The notes beneath the pieces are model-generated. The model worked only from the letters and a program-made list of their open reading frames with translations. It had not been told where the DNA came from and searched no databases. Source: a virus. Taken from it: a DNA stretch of 30,328 bases. Shown piece after piece: positions 4,122 to 22,339 of this stretch. Position 1 is the first letter of the stretch. Each line of letters opens with the position of its first letter. The position numbers and the translations under genes are program-made. The stretch is from IMG/VR virus record IMGVR_UViG_3300025276_000139, positions 1 to 30,328 of that record, one strand, 5' to 3'.

Positions 4122-4257
4122 TTTAAACAAACCACATCCATGCCATGTATGTAAAAAAGAAGGAAAATTTTTTTATAAAAAATGGTGGTGTGGGCATGAC
4201 AAATATTTAAAAGGAGTTTGTAATGACAAAGGGAAAAGAGACACTAAAGAAAAATAA
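4111..4257 (+). CDS. Zinc-ribbon-like mini-protein (48 aa)
   Basis: A 48-residue basic protein starts at ATG 4111 inside the last codons of the DUF3310 gene (11-base overlap). It has PCHVCKKEGKF, then WWCGH and later GVC, giving a C-x2-C ... C-G-H ... C pattern that could bind one zinc ion. Small phage proteins with the order CHVC, K-WWC-HD, KGVC are familiar, but their function is not known to me. No ribosome site precedes it, so translation is probably coupled to DUF3310. The next small gene begins at 4223 inside its last third in another frame. Confidence 0.55.
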   Translation: MKINLNKPHPCHVCKKEGKFFYKKWWCGHDKYLKGVCNDKGKRDTKEK

Positions 4258-4381
4258 GGAAGAGTGGAAAGAACATAGATTTGTATGGGAGGGGTATACA
4301 TATTTTATAATGAGCAAGGGAAATGAGTTTCATATTGTTCATGAGCCAACAGGTAAAATTGTAACAAAGGGGAATTTATGA
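4223..4381 (+). CDS. Small basic protein of unknown function (52 aa)
   Basis: This 52-residue frame starts at ATG 4223, six bases after AAAAGGAG, and ends with a TGA that overlaps the ATG of the next gene (ATGA at 4378-4381). The product is charged at its N-terminus (MTKGKETLKKNKEEWKEH) and then looks like a short beta sheet (FVWEGYTYFIMSKGNEFHIV). No family is recognised. The good ribosome site and the exact overlap with the next gene support it as real, although it shares 35 bases with the zinc-ribbon-like gene. Confidence 0.6.
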   Translation: MTKGKETLKKNKEEWKEHRFVWEGYTYFIMSKGNEFHIVHEPTGKIVTKGNL

Positions 4382-4806
4382 AATACGAAATATTAAGAAA
4401 TCAATCTAATTTGCATTGGTATGATTTAGCTGATGGTTCTAAACTTCAGCGTTATCAATTAGCCGATAAAGTTTATGAGTTGTTTGAAAATGGAAAAGAA
4501 TTAATAATTCCAGAAGTAGCTAAAACAATTGGTATTGAAGAAGTAATTGCTGCTCATATTATTCGGAGTTTAGTTATCAAAGATTTGTTAGCTAGAAAGA
4601 ATAAACAAAAACGAAGGCACAGAATTTATTTTCAAAAACACAAATGTGCTTTGGCTAATATGCTTTATCCAAAAACAATAGTAGATAAATTTGAAATAAA
4701 AAATAGAAAATCTTACAAGATAGATGAGGGTAAAAATATATCTTACCCACTATCCACACCTCATATGTATGGTACTGTTAATACTATATATGAAGGTGGT
4801 GAGTGA
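4378..4806 (+). CDS. Putative winged-helix regulator
   Basis: This 142-residue basic protein has at residues 24-75 a likely winged helix-turn-helix: a helix ending VYELFENGKE, then LIIPEVAKTIGIEEVIAAHI and a recognition-like helix IIRSLVIKDLLARK, followed by basic residues (KNKQKRRHRIYFQKHK). The C-terminal part is polar and without motif. It overlaps its upstream neighbour by ATGA and its downstream neighbour by GTGA, so it belongs to the same translationally coupled rightward operon, just before the Q-like gene. A DNA-binding regulatory role is inferred from the HTH-like pattern only. Confidence 0.5.
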   Translation: MKYEILRNQSNLHWYDLADGSKLQRYQLADKVYELFENGKELIIPEVAKTIGIEEVIAAHIIRSLVIKDLLARKNKQKRRHRIYFQKHKCALANMLYPKTIVDKFEIKNRKSYKIDEGKNISYPLSTPHMYGTVNTIYEGGE

Positions 4807-5129
4807 GGATTAATCGTCTTATGATTATACTAGACGATTGGTCTAGGTGGATGAAATCAGATAATCATGGACTAGGTTACCCAAGCAGTACCAGTTATTT
4901 TTCTACTGGTGGTGAGTCTACATCGGAAGTGTTTGAGGATATGGTATCTAAAACTGATATGAATAATGTTAAGATTGTTGATGCTGTTATTGATGGTCTT
5001 TCTGATACTCAAAAAGCAGCAATTTATTATCGGTTTCTTGGAGGGAATAAACCTGTGTTTTATGAGAGACAGCTTGATTTAGCTATGGATAATTTACTAA
5101 CTATTACCGGGAAAAGAATATATGCCTAA
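4803..5129 (+). CDS. Antitermination protein Q-like regulator
   Basis: This 108-residue protein starts with GTG overlapping the previous stop (GTGA), preceded by AAGGTGG. The N-terminal part has the pattern LDDWSRWMKSDNHGLGYPS (10-28), closely like the LE.WG.W.....GLGYPS opening of phage Q/RinA/ArpU-type late regulators. A middle segment, DAVIDGLSDTQKAAIYYRFL, looks like their HTH-containing part with a conserved Tyr-x-x-x-Leu/Gly end. Such proteins switch on late genes by binding the late promoter and modifying RNA polymerase. As the last gene of the early rightward operon it is in the expected place. The late operon it would control starts beyond 30328. The family call is moderate; sequence similarity should be checked. 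Confidence 0.55.
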   Translation: MRINRLMIILDDWSRWMKSDNHGLGYPSSTSYFSTGGESTSEVFEDMVSKTDMNNVKIVDAVIDGLSDTQKAAIYYRFLGGNKPVFYERQLDLAMDNLLTITGKRIYA

Positions 5130-7180
5130 TTATTGGTAGCTCTTATAACACTATTTTTAAGTTTAGCATCTGGAAATACTTTTTTCACTAAATCTAAATA
5201 GTCGGCAGCTTTTTTATCTTGTTGATAACTGTCTTTAGATGTAACTCTACCAACTCCGTCTTTTTTGCCTTCAAACACACTTATATATACCTTACCATCT
5301 TTTTTAACTGCATCTTTAGCTTGGTTTAATACTTTAAGCTGATTGGCTTCACCATCTATAACATTTAATACATTGTTAATTGTAGCTGTATCAGCATTGC
5401 CACCAGAAACTGCATCAACAACATTAGCGTTATGAGCTTTGGTTCTGTTAAATGGATCATAGACTAAATTTGTAGCATCAGATTTTTGTAACAACTCATC
5501 AGCGTTGTCAAATTTACCACCACCTATATCAATATTGACACTACCCTTTTTAAACGCTTTTTCTTTAGTTAGCTGTGTAAATGCTGCCGCAGTTTTAGTT
5601 TTATTAACAGATGTATTTGCTGATGTAATTGCTTGTATAGGTTCATCCCATACAGAGCTAGTATTTTTCTGTAATAACCCACCTGATTTTGTAGGGTTGT
5701 TTGTAGTTGGATTTGAGAATGTATCTAATAAACCTTGCTGTCTTAATTTTTCTTGTTTAACTCTTTGTTCAAATTTTGGCATAACACTATCTAGCCATTT
5801 TTGATCAAACTTTTGTGTTGGAAAAGCTAATTCTGCTGAACGATTATCTGCACTAACAGGTTTACCTAACAATCTTCTTTCTGCAATAAAGTCAGGAAAC
5901 AATTCAGCGTGTGGCATTTGCACTTGTAATTCACCAACTTGAGTTCCACCTATATGGGTATTGTAAGTCGGATGTGGTACATTTGGATTTGTAATAATCA
6001 TATTGTCAGGATCTATTTTTCCAACTCTATATCCAGAATACATATTAGGTGTGTTTATTAAAGGTGGATCTGTAATTGCTTTTTTAATTGGAGCTATTTC
6101 AGGGAACCCCATATTTCTAAATTTAGCTTGACTGCCTATTTCATTAAATTGAGTTCGTAATGCTCCTGCCCCTCTTAAATATAATTGTTCTCTTGCTTCA
6201 GGATGATTTATACCTAACCATTCAGGTCTAATTTTTCTTAATGAATCATCAAACTCTTTAATTGTTTTTTTAGGTAAATTGAAAGTTCTTATTTCTTGTA
6301 AAAATCCATCTGTTAACATTGTATTAAATCTTAAAGAATCATGAGCTGAAGTAGTATAAATTGTTGCAGGATTGTACCCTTCGTCTAATAACCCTCTTGC
6401 TTGGTTACCTATTGTAGAAACTCTGCCTTTTTCTGATGCCCATATGTCATCGTTTATATCAGCAAATCTACCACCACCATGTAAAGGTACACCTTCTTTT
6501 AAAGGCACCCCATCTATTTCAGTTAATAAACCAACATTTGTTCTATCGCCTTTTGTAGTTATACCTGCTAATTTTTGATTATATAAATCTTCAGGTGTAA
6601 TTATTTTTGGTGTTTTTGTATTTTTAAACGGAACAATAATAGATGACATATCATCAATAGGTCTTAATTTTGTAGTGTCTACAGTTATTGATTTTCCACT
6701 TGCTAAACTTGGAGTTGTTAAAGGATGTATAAATCCTTGATTAACTGCATCCGTTCTTGTCATTTTGTTTTTTACATTAGATACTACTTCTTTACCTTTT
6801 TTAATTACAGGACCTGTAACTTTCTTTGCAATTCTGCCTATAGGTAAGGTTTCTAAACCAAGCAAACCAAAACCTGTAGCAACATCACCATAATTTCCTT
6901 GTGCTAATCCTCGCCCAGTATCTCTAGCTATATTTTCAGATACTCCTGAAAAACCAGTTAAATCCATAAGACCAAAATGATTTCTTCTACCAATTAAACC
7001 ATCTGCTAATGAAGAATTTTTTAATCCTAAAGCCTTACCAAAACTATCTACTGTGTTGTATGCTGACTGTTGAAAGGTAGGTTTTGCTTGTTCAAAAGAA
7101 TGATCTAAATAGGATTTTCTATTTAATGCTCTTTCCAGTTCAGACTGCATAGCAATTCTTTCTATTTCATCTAATCTCAT
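5126..7180 (-). CDS. Large putative ejected protein with C-terminal methyltransferase-like domain
   Basis: This 684-residue protein is the last gene of the late operon, starting by ATGA overlap with the gene before it. Residues 1-150 are helical with Gly-rich hydrophobic segments (GFGLLGLETLPIGRIAKKV), like phage internal virion proteins. Residues about 190-450 form a conserved-looking domain with GDRTNVGLLTEIDGVPLKEG, GGRFADINDDIWASEKGR and IGGTQVGELQVQ; I think I have seen this in large multidomain phage proteins but cannot name it. Residues 548-684 resemble a Rossmann methyltransferase: DIGGGK (551-556, motif I), LVYDPFNR (572-579, acidic motif II end), ADTATINNVLNVI (motif IV position) and a GKVYISVFEG strand. 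There is no DPPY/NPPY catalytic motif of amino-methylating DNA enzymes. It is probably packaged and injected; the substrate is unknown. Confidence 0.6.
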   Translation of the reverse strand: MRLDEIERIAMQSELERALNRKSYLDHSFEQAKPTFQQSAYNTVDSFGKALGLKNSSLADGLIGRRNHFGLMDLTGFSGVSENIARDTGRGLAQGNYGDVATGFGLLGLETLPIGRIAKKVTGPVIKKGKEVVSNVKNKMTRTDAVNQGFIHPLTTPSLASGKSITVDTTKLRPIDDMSSIIVPFKNTKTPKIITPEDLYNQKLAGITTKGDRTNVGLLTEIDGVPLKEGVPLHGGGRFADINDDIWASEKGRVSTIGNQARGLLDEGYNPATIYTTSAHDSLRFNTMLTDGFLQEIRTFNLPKKTIKEFDDSLRKIRPEWLGINHPEAREQLYLRGAGALRTQFNEIGSQAKFRNMGFPEIAPIKKAITDPPLINTPNMYSGYRVGKIDPDNMIITNPNVPHPTYNTHIGGTQVGELQVQMPHAELFPDFIAERRLLGKPVSADNRSAELAFPTQKFDQKWLDSVMPKFEQRVKQEKLRQQGLLDTFSNPTTNNPTKSGGLLQKNTSSVWDEPIQAITSANTSVNKTKTAAAFTQLTKEKAFKKGSVNIDIGGGKFDNADELLQKSDATNLVYDPFNRTKAHNANVVDAVSGGNADTATINNVLNVIDGEANQLKVLNQAKDAVKKDGKVYISVFEGKKDGVGRVTSKDSYQQDKKAADYLDLVKKVFPDAKLKNSVIRATNN

Positions 7181-17906: not shown

Positions 17907-18233
17907 CTAAAATTTATCTAGTGTTTTTTTTATTTTATCTAATACCATAGGAATTAACTTCATGCCTGAATAACCTATAAAAAAAGCTAAAGCAGGTTCA
18001 AAAGAGGTATGTAAATTAAATGTAGCAACTAGTGGCGGAATTAAAAAAGTAATAGATGCAAGTGCTATACATATATTGTAAAACAATTCTATTCTTGCAT
18101 TTTTTCTATGAATCATCCAATTGATGTGACCACCTTTTGGCTTTCTTCCTTTTACTTTTTGTGTGTTGTAATTACACAATCCCCCAATAATACTTGCTAC
18201 AATACACAAAATATGGTCTAAAAAATAAAACAT
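17907..18233 (-). CDS. Three-span membrane protein, holin-like
   Basis: This 108-residue protein has hydrophobic spans at about residues 4-22 (FLDHILCIVASIIGGLCNY), 49-70 (ELFYNICIALASITFLIPPL) and 80-97 (ALAFFIGYSGMKLIPMVL). There is a basic loop between the first two (KVKGRKPKGGHINW) and a basic C-terminus (DKIKKTLDKF). The layout resembles LydA-type phage holins, where GG...N and a GYSG-like turn also occur, but this is only a topology match. It lies inside the fibre region, far from the main lysis cassette, and starts exactly at the RCC1 fibre stop (TAATG). Confidence 0.5.
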   Translation of the reverse strand: MFYFLDHILCIVASIIGGLCNYNTQKVKGRKPKGGHINWMIHRKNARIELFYNICIALASITFLIPPLVATFNLHTSFEPALAFFIGYSGMKLIPMVLDKIKKTLDKF

Positions 18234-20470
18234 TAAAATAAAATTGGTTTTGGTGTAAAGAAAGCAGCAGAATCATCTTCAGGTATTTGATAACCACCAC
18301 CATAACCCCATGTAAAGCAAGAACCATTATCCATTAATGCAGTAAATCCAGATTCACTAGTATACCCTTGACAAGATATATCAACTACATTTCCTTGTAG
18401 TCCATCAATTTCTGTAAATACCTTATAATTATTACCTGTTTGTCCTTGTCCTATTTGACCAGAAGCATTATAACCACAGGCATACATTTTACCTTCTGAA
18501 GTTATACAAGCTGAAATACCATAAGAAGCACCACCACCACAAAGCACTTTAGTTACAGTGAATGGATTACTTGCTGCTGATAATGTTTGATTAGTATAAC
18601 TTCCATCTGCTTGTTTTAATCTAAATTTAGATTCAGCATAAGTAGAAGTATTAGTTGTACTATCATGTCCAAGTTGACCATAGTTATTAAAACCAGATGC
18701 CCAAACAGTACCATCTGTTCTTATAACTAAAGAATGATGATTATTTGAAGTACATTTACTAACAGATACTGCTGTTACATTAGCAAGAACATTAGTTGGT
18801 TGATAATAATTAGTTGCAGTACCACCTCTGCCTAAGAAACCTGTAGTATCAGTTCCCCAAGTCCATAAGTTATTAGATGAGTCAATTGCATGAACTCCCT
18901 CATGAGAATACGCTGCTACTTTACTAATAGTTACACCATTAGTTGTTCCTACTGTTGGAACAATAGTTGGTACTGTTTGTGATGTAGTATTATTTTCCCC
19001 ATGCTGATAAAATCCTGCATAACCTGTGTGATATAAATCTCCACCAGCTGTAAGAGTCATTAAAGAGGGTGATGTACTTCCTGACATATGTATTGATGCA
19101 GCTTTTAAAGCAGTACTTGTACCAAATGTTGGATATGTTTTAAATTCATATTGAACTGCAGTATTAGCTTGTCCCATCATTCCATGAGCATTATATCCTG
19201 TACCATAAACATAACCATTTTCATCTCTAACAATAGTAGCATCACTACCACCATCAGTTGCATAAGGTAAAGCAAGTTGTACAATTTTCTTTCTTGATGC
19301 TTCAGTTGTTAAATGACCAATACCACCAGAGTTATTAGTCCTTGTTGAAATATTTACAGGAACTCCTTTTCTACCTTCAAAAGGTCCACCTGCTGTTGCA
19401 TTACCTATTCCCATATGACCTACAAGATTTCTACCCCATGTCCATAAATGTTTGTTTTTATCAATACAAGCACCAGTAGAATTATAGTTTGCAAGAAAGT
19501 TACCTGATACATTTTCTATGCCTGGAAATGATTGTGGAAAGGCTACATTAATTGGTTGACTTCTATTACTAGTAATATAACCAATACCACCTTTATAGCC
19601 AGAGTTAGTTCCCCACCATCTTAAAGTACCATCAGTCATTTGTACCATATTTGAACGATATGAGCCACCACTGTCCGCTCTTAGTTGAGCTACTTTAGTT
19701 CCTGACCTAACATCTTCTGCTGACCAAATTGGTAAGAATGTAGATTCATCAATTTTAAGAATTTGATTCTCACTTCCAACAGGTAAACTTACTAAAGTTG
19801 TACCATTATAATATAATATGTCTCCCTCAACACTGCCAGTAAAATCTACTCCTTGCGTAAATTGATTCCAAGCAGATGCAATAGCTACTGTTGTAGAAGC
19901 TGCTGCTGTAGGAGCAGTACCACCCATACCTGAATGAGCATAACAATAATAGAAAAGATTAGGTGCACTTAATGGAACAACTATTTGAATGTATCTTGCT
20001 GTTGCAGAAGTATATGCAGAACCTATCCAATCAGAGTAAGGAACTGATGAACCCCCTAGATAATATGTAACCCCACTTGTGTAAGCAGCACCACCTCCAT
20101 GAGTTCCATCAGATGTTGAGCTAAACAAAAGAGGATGTGTATTATTAGACGCATCATTTTGATAAATTTTATATGTCTTACCTTCAATTAGTTTTAAGTA
20201 TCTTTGTTTAGTATAAGTACCTGAACCATTAGTTACATCTACATAAAAGTAGTTTGCTCCGCCATCAGCTTGGACTTTAACATAGTATTCTTCAGTACCT
20301 GTACCAGCAACTCTTGTTACTGTCGCTGGGACTACTCCTGATGTCCCATCTGTAACACAAATGTATGTTGTTCCATTATATGAAACTACGTCTTGTGCAT
20401 TATAAGTTGTTCCGCTAGCATAAGCCGCTTTCCAACTAAATTTAACTTTACCTAACGAAACTGTTGCCAT
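18233..20470 (-). CDS. Fibre/receptor-binding protein with cupredoxin-like domain and RCC1 propeller
   Basis: This 745-residue protein has three parts. Residues 10-40 (FSWKAAYASGTTYNAQDVVS, then YNGTTYICV) look like a small carbohydrate-binding module of the CBM5/12 type. Residues about 68-185 look like a cupredoxin: His 112 (NNTHPLLFS), then LFYYCYAHSGMGG with Cys 176, His 179 and Met 182. This C-x2-H-x2-M spacing is that of a type I copper site. Residues about 256-745 contain about eight RCC1-like blades (MTDGTLRWWGTN, DKNKHLWTWGRN, SSNNLWTWGTD, RTDGTVWASGFNNYGQLG, SEGKMYACGYNASGQIGQG). It ends TPKPILF, like its downstream paralogue. It is probably a tail fibre or spike that binds the cell surface. 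No catalytic motif is seen. Confidence 0.75.
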   Translation of the reverse strand: MATVSLGKVKFSWKAAYASGTTYNAQDVVSYNGTTYICVTDGTSGVVPATVTRVAGTGTEEYYVKVQADGGANYFYVDVTNGSGTYTKQRYLKLIEGKTYKIYQNDASNNTHPLLFSSTSDGTHGGGAAYTSGVTYYLGGSSVPYSDWIGSAYTSATARYIQIVVPLSAPNLFYYCYAHSGMGGTAPTAAASTTVAIASAWNQFTQGVDFTGSVEGDILYYNGTTLVSLPVGSENQILKIDESTFLPIWSAEDVRSGTKVAQLRADSGGSYRSNMVQMTDGTLRWWGTNSGYKGGIGYITSNRSQPINVAFPQSFPGIENVSGNFLANYNSTGACIDKNKHLWTWGRNLVGHMGIGNATAGGPFEGRKGVPVNISTRTNNSGGIGHLTTEASRKKIVQLALPYATDGGSDATIVRDENGYVYGTGYNAHGMMGQANTAVQYEFKTYPTFGTSTALKAASIHMSGSTSPSLMTLTAGGDLYHTGYAGFYQHGENNTTSQTVPTIVPTVGTTNGVTISKVAAYSHEGVHAIDSSNNLWTWGTDTTGFLGRGGTATNYYQPTNVLANVTAVSVSKCTSNNHHSLVIRTDGTVWASGFNNYGQLGHDSTTNTSTYAESKFRLKQADGSYTNQTLSAASNPFTVTKVLCGGGASYGISACITSEGKMYACGYNASGQIGQGQTGNNYKVFTEIDGLQGNVVDISCQGYTSESGFTALMDNGSCFTWGYGGGYQIPEDDSAAFFTPKPILF

Positions 20471-20482
20471 TACTTTCTCCTA

Positions 20483-22339
20483 TTAAAATAATACTTTTTT
20501 GGGTGTTAAGCAATTAGCACTATCATCATCATTATTCATTTGGTTTACACCTGCACCGACTGTGTAAACATTCCCATCTTCTCCAAGCATAGCAAAATTA
20601 AGATTATTAGTTGCATTAATTAAATACCCTGCTATATCGTAATCAACTATTTTTTCAGGAATTTGCATTGCTGGAATACCTGCTGTTTGATAACTATATG
20701 GGTTTACGGCAGCTGTATCACCTAAACCTGTTTGTCCTAATTCACCTTGTCCCCAAACATACATATAACCATCTGTTGTTAAACTTGACAAAGTTGTACC
20801 ATAATTTTGTCCATGAACATGAAATTTAGATTTACTAAATACATCATTGCCTTCATGTAAATGTTTATTTGTTTGGTCTACTCCATTTTCTGTACTAAAT
20901 TTAAGTTTGTTAAATCCACCGCCAGTACCTGTCCCTGAACCATTTAATACTGAAGAACCATTATAACCATTCCCATGCTTTCTACCTACTCCCCAAATTT
21001 CTCCTTGAGCAGTTAAGCCATAAGTCCTTCCATATCCTCCATTTCTTGTGTGCAAATCAACAAACCCACCTACATTAACTCCTGCTACATTGCCACCAAA
21101 GGCAGCAGCTCCTCCAAATATTTTTTGTCCATCATCTGAAGTTACTTGTCCAGCACCACCTATTGTAGGAAGAGCTAAAGCTGGTAGAGGAGTAATTTCA
21201 TTTTGGTTTGTTGGATTATTACCAGCAATCCACCCTCTACCTGTTGTATCTAAAACCATACGCCTACCCATGTTTTGTACACCAGCAGTTGCATGATAAT
21301 CACTGTTATACATTCTAACAAAACTATAAGTATTTCCCAAAATCCTTGTGTATTCTACAAAACCCCCATATTCATTTTTACTTGATAATGCCCAATTAGC
21401 ACTTCCAACGGAGTATATCTTTCCTGAAGTATCTATAACATAAACAGCAGGGGTATTTGTACAAGCTGGAAATATATGTTTTTGTTTTATTGCTGGCATT
21501 GGCACACCATTAGCTAATGTAGTAATTTTAGTTGGTTTGTATTGTGGAGTTACTACACCATCACGACCACACTGACCATTTGCATTAACTCCCCAACTAT
21601 AGATACCTCCTGCATCATCTTGTGCGTACATTACAGTTTTTGCATCACCTATATTTTGGTCTCTATCTCCAGTCATGAAAGTAATTTTTTTACCTTCCAT
21701 GTCAGTACCTTTGCTGATGTCTGTTACTTTATATCTAGCTGCTACACCATAGTCAGAGTTCCATGCCCATCCTCCATAGATAGGGTCTCCACCAGAAGCA
21801 TATAAAACACCATCTTGGTCTATAATATATATGTTAAGTTGTAAACTAAAAGCATCTACTACATTTTTACCTTTAGGCATAGGAACTGTACAAGGTTGCA
21901 TATTAGATGCTGCAATATTACCTAAACCTGATTGACCACTTGTTTGTAATCCCCAGACTCTTAATGTGCCATCACTCATAATAGCACCATGATAATAGGC
22001 ATAGGAATAGCTTTCACTTGGTCTTATATGTCTCATTAATTTTATTGCTTTAGTACCTGACCTTTCTCCAGAGTGTCTAAATTCAACTGTATCTTCTTTT
22101 GAATGTAAGCTTGTACCTCTAGTACCAGTTACTCCTCCAGATAAAGAGTTAGTAACAACCTCACCTTTTGTTGTAGCTGCTTGTTGAGCTTCTGTAAAAA
22201 TAACCCAAGCACCATTTAAATATGAATATACTCCTCCCTCTTTAGCTACTACATCATAATTTATATATGTGTTTGCAGCATTATAGTCACCCTTCCATCG
22301 GTAACCTAGTTTTGTGTAATCTATAAATTGTTGAGTCAT
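20483..22339 (-). CDS. RCC1-propeller fibre protein (paralogue)
   Basis: This 618-residue protein starts with a CBM5/12-like segment (YRWKGDYNAANTYINYDVVA) and after a linker has about eight RCC1-like blades (MSDGTLRVWGLQTSGQSGLG, DQDGVLYASGG, DAGGIYSWGVNANGQCGRDG, DTSGKIYSVG, TAQGEIWGVG, TTDGYMYVWGQGELGQTGLG, GEDGNVYTVG). The RSGTK... segment before the first blade and the ending DDDSANCLTPKKVLF match the neighbouring 745-residue protein (SGTKV..., DDSAAFFTPKPILF), so both came from one ancestor by tandem duplication; this one lacks the cupredoxin part. It is likely a receptor-binding protein. The start lies nine bases after the previous stop with a plausible AAGGT site. Confidence 0.8.
   Translation of the reverse strand: MTQQFIDYTKLGYRWKGDYNAANTYINYDVVAKEGGVYSYLNGAWVIFTEAQQAATTKGEVVTNSLSGGVTGTRGTSLHSKEDTVEFRHSGERSGTKAIKLMRHIRPSESYSYAYYHGAIMSDGTLRVWGLQTSGQSGLGNIAASNMQPCTVPMPKGKNVVDAFSLQLNIYIIDQDGVLYASGGDPIYGGWAWNSDYGVAARYKVTDISKGTDMEGKKITFMTGDRDQNIGDAKTVMYAQDDAGGIYSWGVNANGQCGRDGVVTPQYKPTKITTLANGVPMPAIKQKHIFPACTNTPAVYVIDTSGKIYSVGSANWALSSKNEYGGFVEYTRILGNTYSFVRMYNSDYHATAGVQNMGRRMVLDTTGRGWIAGNNPTNQNEITPLPALALPTIGGAGQVTSDDGQKIFGGAAAFGGNVAGVNVGGFVDLHTRNGGYGRTYGLTAQGEIWGVGRKHGNGYNGSSVLNGSGTGTGGGFNKLKFSTENGVDQTNKHLHEGNDVFSKSKFHVHGQNYGTTLSSLTTDGYMYVWGQGELGQTGLGDTAAVNPYSYQTAGIPAMQIPEKIVDYDIAGYLINATNNLNFAMLGEDGNVYTVGAGVNQMNNDDDSANCLTPKKVLF

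Follow-up and report, generated by a model that had tools for sequence, protein, structure and literature searches.

The fibre gene and its setting

We analyzed a window of 30,328 bases, which is a whole IMG/VR virus record. Methylophilales phage Venkman EXVC282S has the nearest major capsid protein (67%), and the two phages have a gene order in common: terminase, portal, scaffold, capsid, tail tube A and B, fibre region, collar, and "stabilization protein". This synteny suggests that the window phage has a marine methylotroph host. A 745-aa frame on the minus strand (positions 18233–20470) starts with ATG, with aggag upstream at a normal distance. The gene lies between the tail-tube and collar genes and, because the gene order matches Venkman, we place it in the fibre region, the part in which Venkman and the window phage diverge most. 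Pfam found RCC1 repeats in the C-terminal two thirds of the protein (RCC1, 1.2e-18; WD40_RLD, 9e-43). A sequence-only reading had called this gene an RCC1 tail fibre; the Pfam matches and the fibre-region gene order bear this out, and a relative on a Pelagibacteraceae contig (L122) has the PF03906 N-terminal domain of tail fibres.

The protein consists of an N-terminal anchor, a cupredoxin domain, and an RCC1 beta-propeller. Residues 16–46 (20333–20425, minus strand) form a CBM_5_12-like segment (Pfam, 27.1 bits for a cut-off of 26.2). The cupredoxin domain covers residues ∼66–187 (19910–20275, minus strand), and the propeller, which is presumed to face the receptor, covers residues ∼255–745 (18236–19708, minus strand). 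For comparison only, we used the paralogous RCC1 fibre protein encoded at 20483–22339 on the same strand, which has no cupredoxin domain. The propellers of the two proteins could be aligned (blastp, 25% over the propeller), and the CBM_5_12-like segment also matched the paralogue, weakly (38% over 29 aa). The RCC1 proteins of the window had no blastp match in Venkman. By the same comparison Venkman, the nearest cultured relative, lacks the cupredoxin domain, which is therefore dispensable in this phage group.

Fold of the domain and its links to known copper proteins

An AlphaFold2 model of the window domain, built with 60 natural sequences, had a pLDDT of 91.9 and a pTM of 0.86; the model of a canonical family member reached 95.8 and 0.87. 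We compared both models with the PDB using Foldseek, in a library that holds many other beta-sandwiches, such as antibodies. The first seven matches of the window domain were all cupredoxins (AcoP and plastocyanin), AcoP matching with an E-value of 8.7e-4 and a probability of 1.00; rusticyanin followed at rank 10 and amicyanin at rank 35. The canonical member had cupredoxins at all of ranks 1–10, including rusticyanin, the cupredoxin-bearing nitrite reductase 2dv6, and the multicopper oxidase McoA. The Greek-key beta-sandwich of cupredoxins, which the sequence-only reading had implied, is thus what both fold searches put first. TM-scores were moderate (about 0.45–0.56, with E-values of about 1e-3 to 1e-2), which would fit a distant cupredoxin family with loops of its own. 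In a Foldseek search of BFVD, "beta-sandwich proteins" of the Pithovirus and Marseillevirus metagenome genomes LCPAC302, LCPAC304, and LCMAC201 also resembled the domain (ranks 36, 48, and 50).

The ligand set of type 1 copper sites, a His followed by Cys-x(n)-His-x(n)-Met, is present in the right order. On the minus strand, the proposed ligands are His112 (codon 20135–20137) on the N-terminal side, the thiolate ligand Cys176 (19943–19945), His179 (19934–19936), and the axial ligand Met182 (19925–19927). The numbering of the translation puts all four exactly where they had been reported, and they are conserved across copies of the domain. The domain itself, earlier drawn as residues 68–185, exists where it was claimed; we refined its borders to ∼66–187 and specified its strand as minus. 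In the model, H112 lies just before a strand, C176 closes the penultimate strand, and H179 and M182 occupy the loop before the last strand, a predicted placement as in cupredoxins. Together with the joint loss of the ligands (below), this placement indirectly supports a site at which the four side chains would lie near one another. C-x2-H-x2-M is the spacing of amicyanin, which the window domain has in common with that protein. Fold, ligand order, and strand context are likewise those of rusticyanin, AcoP, and the small blue copper proteins of PF00127 (plastocyanin, amicyanin, and pseudoazurin). The small blue copper proteins are free electron carriers, whereas the window domain is a module of a virion fibre, and the window protein is too distant from PF00127 for Pfam to call.

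We looked for sequence links. A PDB sequence search with the window domain gave no match at E 10; a search with the family profile, which matches the window domain at 1e-41, returned antibodies and one pseudoazurin at E 0.75, not significant. No Pfam family covered residues 60–190, and the window protein had no match to PF00127 (Copper-bind) at the gathering cut-off of 21.2 bits. Only 3 of 60 family members matched PF00127 at all (best E 0.15), and a Woeseiaceae member sits at the threshold, with 24 and 20.7 bits. In profile comparisons the family matched PF00127-positive marine proteins at 96.2%, and these matched plastocyanin-like proteins at 97.7%. The direct comparison of the family with plastocyanin-like proteins was weak (23–28%) and left the N-terminal His unpaired, so the link to cupredoxins rests on the folds and on the intermediate PF00127-positive set. 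The family signature reads N-K-Y-x-I-D-G ... H-P-L-x-F-S-T-T-S-D-G-T-H-G-G-G ... Y-Y-Y-C-x-x-H-S-G-M-G-G.

Distribution in phages and marine cells

In tblastn searches, the window copy matched the domain in 243 phage records and the canonical copy in 204, and more than 200 isolated marine phages carry it. By organism name, the carriers are Synechococcus phages or cyanophages, Prochlorococcus, Pelagibacter, and Methylophilales phages, and a few marine or uncultured phages. Their proteins are annotated as baseplate wedge subunit, gp9-like tail-fibre connector, neck, tail fibre, virion structural, or hypothetical proteins. IMG/VR contained at least 568 copies of the domain. These copies and the tblastn matches confirm that YYC..HSGMGG segments occur in structural proteins of marine phages, as the sequence-only reading had suggested. 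The unnamed domain of S-TIM5 YP_007006091 and HTVC028P gp32, found in baseplate-wedge, gp9-like, and tail-fibre proteins of Synechococcus, Prochlorococcus, Pelagibacter, and Methylophilales phages, belongs to the same family by sequence. Unlike those copies, the window copy has an added loop (residues ∼136–156), common to a viral subgroup, and stands N-terminal to an RCC1 propeller. In a close relative of the window fibre (L016, aa 75–285), about 94 residues interrupt the cupredoxin domain, as either an insertion or an assembly problem.

In GTDB genomes, the domain was found in marine plankton. On Pelagibacteraceae contigs it occurs in T7-type tail fibres (PF03906), and these copies are apparently prophage. 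Copies in SAR86, Woeseiaceae, Poseidoniales, and Actinomarina look like parts of cell proteins: lipoprotein-like proteins in SAR86 and Woeseiaceae (with an ACGGGGG box), collagen-stalked proteins in Poseidoniales, and Thr-stalked proteins in Actinomarina. The surface lipoproteins and stalked proteins of SAR86, Poseidoniales, and Actinomarina have the same domain with the His-Cys-His-Met (HCHM) site. These copies differ from the phage ones in being cellular, and they usually form the C-terminal end of collagen-like or Thr-rich stalks or of cadherin-like proteins. Three lipoprotein-like proteins of Marine Group II (Poseidoniales L131, about 4140–5171, L128, and L127) have collagen triple-helix repeats followed by a terminal cupredoxin domain, and from this architecture we read them as stalked surface cupredoxins. 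The placement of the carriers is extracellular throughout, whether they are phage baseplates and fibres, cell lipoproteins, or collagen- or Thr-rich stalks, and this favours the copper-site reading. A tree of 88 domains, which has few columns and many open forks, requires at least three well-supported changes between cells and viruses. It placed the window copy in an all-virus clade of 14 with the longer loop in common (support 98/88).

We know the fold and the site as established kinds, yet the marine phage-fibre cupredoxin family is unnamed in Pfam. The open-access literature (subscription papers and preprints lay outside the search) held nothing that joins cupredoxins or blue copper to phage tails, and no report of this family.

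Conservation of the site and its probable role

All four ligands were present in 283 of 310 distinct complete copies. H112 and the C176/H179 pair were both kept in 286 of the 310 and both lost in 22; only 2 copies were discordant. After clustering at 60% identity, 19 clusters had both, 5 had neither, and 2 were discordant (Fisher p 5e-4, indicative because such clusters are not fully independent). One scan for the family was seeded on the Cys/His/Met motif, which biases its conservation for those three residues (a few rows of its seed alignment, which served only for searching, were given their terminal G by hand). As a correction, we ran a scan whose seed covered only the N-terminal half and contained none of the ligands: H112, C176, and H179 could be read in 76 copies, and 73 of these had all four ligands. 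Two SAR86 copies (L152, 247–333, and L164, 1333–1419, in aa of the frame) read HCHQ, with Gln for the axial Met, an exchange that keeps the type 1 site in stellacyanins.

Ligands were lost in several places: in the second copy of a cyanophage baseplate protein (EGTL, KATV), in PSS2 (DATM), in a giant SAR86 protein (NSAM), and in two viral contigs (YCYY). The baseplate protein carries tandem copies in L012 and L013, one with four ligands and the second (aa 551–681) with none. G82, G97, F102, S117, T119, G122, Y130, G133, P170, L172, Y173, and G183 were kept in 20–22 of the 22 ligand-less copies; thus, the fold is retained while the site is lost, and because such copies persist the fold has uses without metal. 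We also considered His124 (DGTH) as a fifth ligand and rejected it, since most ligand-less copies still have it (as GWH). The joint keeping and loss of the ligands argues for a selected metal site as opposed to a chance motif.

Our preferred reading, to which we give a probability of about 0.68, is that residues ∼66–187 are a marine-type cupredoxin with an intact type 1-like site that acts as a structural or adhesive, metal-stabilised module in the tail fibre, linking the N-terminal anchor to the RCC1 propeller. We infer that the metal is copper. The fibre protein would fold and assemble as an apo-protein inside the host and take up copper from sea water after lysis; loading outside the cell is expected because the cytoplasm keeps free copper very low. 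Once bound, the metal would lock the connecting loops of the sandwich, and the virion exterior would thus bear a stable, protease-resistant module for adhesion or spacing. Three observations suggest a mainly structural or adhesive role: the domain has been shuffled between extracellular proteins of unrelated kinds, we noticed no redox partner, and intact copies stand beside copies without ligands.

The alternative that survives best, at a low probability, keeps the fold and the metal site and gives them an active role: electron transfer, redox sensing, or the binding of scarce copper as bait for the copper uptake of the host. An intact four-ligand set exceeds what a spacer needs, and marine cells living alongside these phages show the same domain on lipoproteins and stalks. 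There is also a parallel in print, the "Ferrojan horse" hypothesis of iron in phage tails. The two ideas are alike in a metal bound in the phage tail that may meet host metal uptake; that hypothesis concerns iron, however, whereas the window domain has a copper-type site. An unsystematic look at the window revealed no redox partner or copper-handling gene, and an active role sits poorly with the occurrence of the domain in very different proteins and hosts and with the tandem baseplate copies, where intact and ligand-less domains share one protein. Redox sensing and copper capture are speculative.

Next, and also improbable, is a cupredoxin fold that holds another metal (Zn or Fe) or none, the four residues being purely structural. 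The identity of the metal is read here from a sequence pattern, and in vitro Zn or Hg can occupy type 1-like sites made of Cys, His, and Met. However, the ligands disappear together while the fold residues stay, which speaks for a metal, and C-x2-H-x2-M with an axial Met is the pattern of copper sites, Met being rare in Zn sites. A sandwich of the immunoglobulin-like or carbohydrate-binding kind, with a C..H..M motif by chance, is very improbable: 6 of 60 members gave weak CBM_4_9 matches (Pfam, best E 0.0033) and antibodies appear lower in the Foldseek lists, but cupredoxins lead both of these lists and the motif is widely kept and linked to a distant His. We can practically dismiss a recent transfer of a host plastocyanin gene fused into the fibre, for although petE occurs in cyanophages as an auxiliary metabolic gene, the direct profile similarity to plastocyanin-like proteins is weak, the window domain belongs to the 14-row all-virus clade, and it is internal to a 745-aa structural protein, not a free-standing secreted plastocyanin.

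If the site of the preferred metal-stabilised module does carry metal, copper centres would sit on the baseplates and fibres of many cultured marine T4-like cyanophages, pelagiphages, and their relatives. Phage adsorption and particle stability would then be tied to the trace-metal chemistry of sea water, and virions would be a pool of bound copper. A broader proposal, which we put forward tentatively and consider doubtful, is that ocean phages commonly carry genuine type 1 copper centres on the outside of their virions, in a surface domain that has passed between them and marine bacteria or archaea, and that copper or redox state helps to decide stability or adsorption. The family assignment would give a name to a domain now annotated only as "hypothetical" or "virion structural", and cultured phages such as S-TIM5 or HTVC028P carry it, which makes these ideas directly testable.
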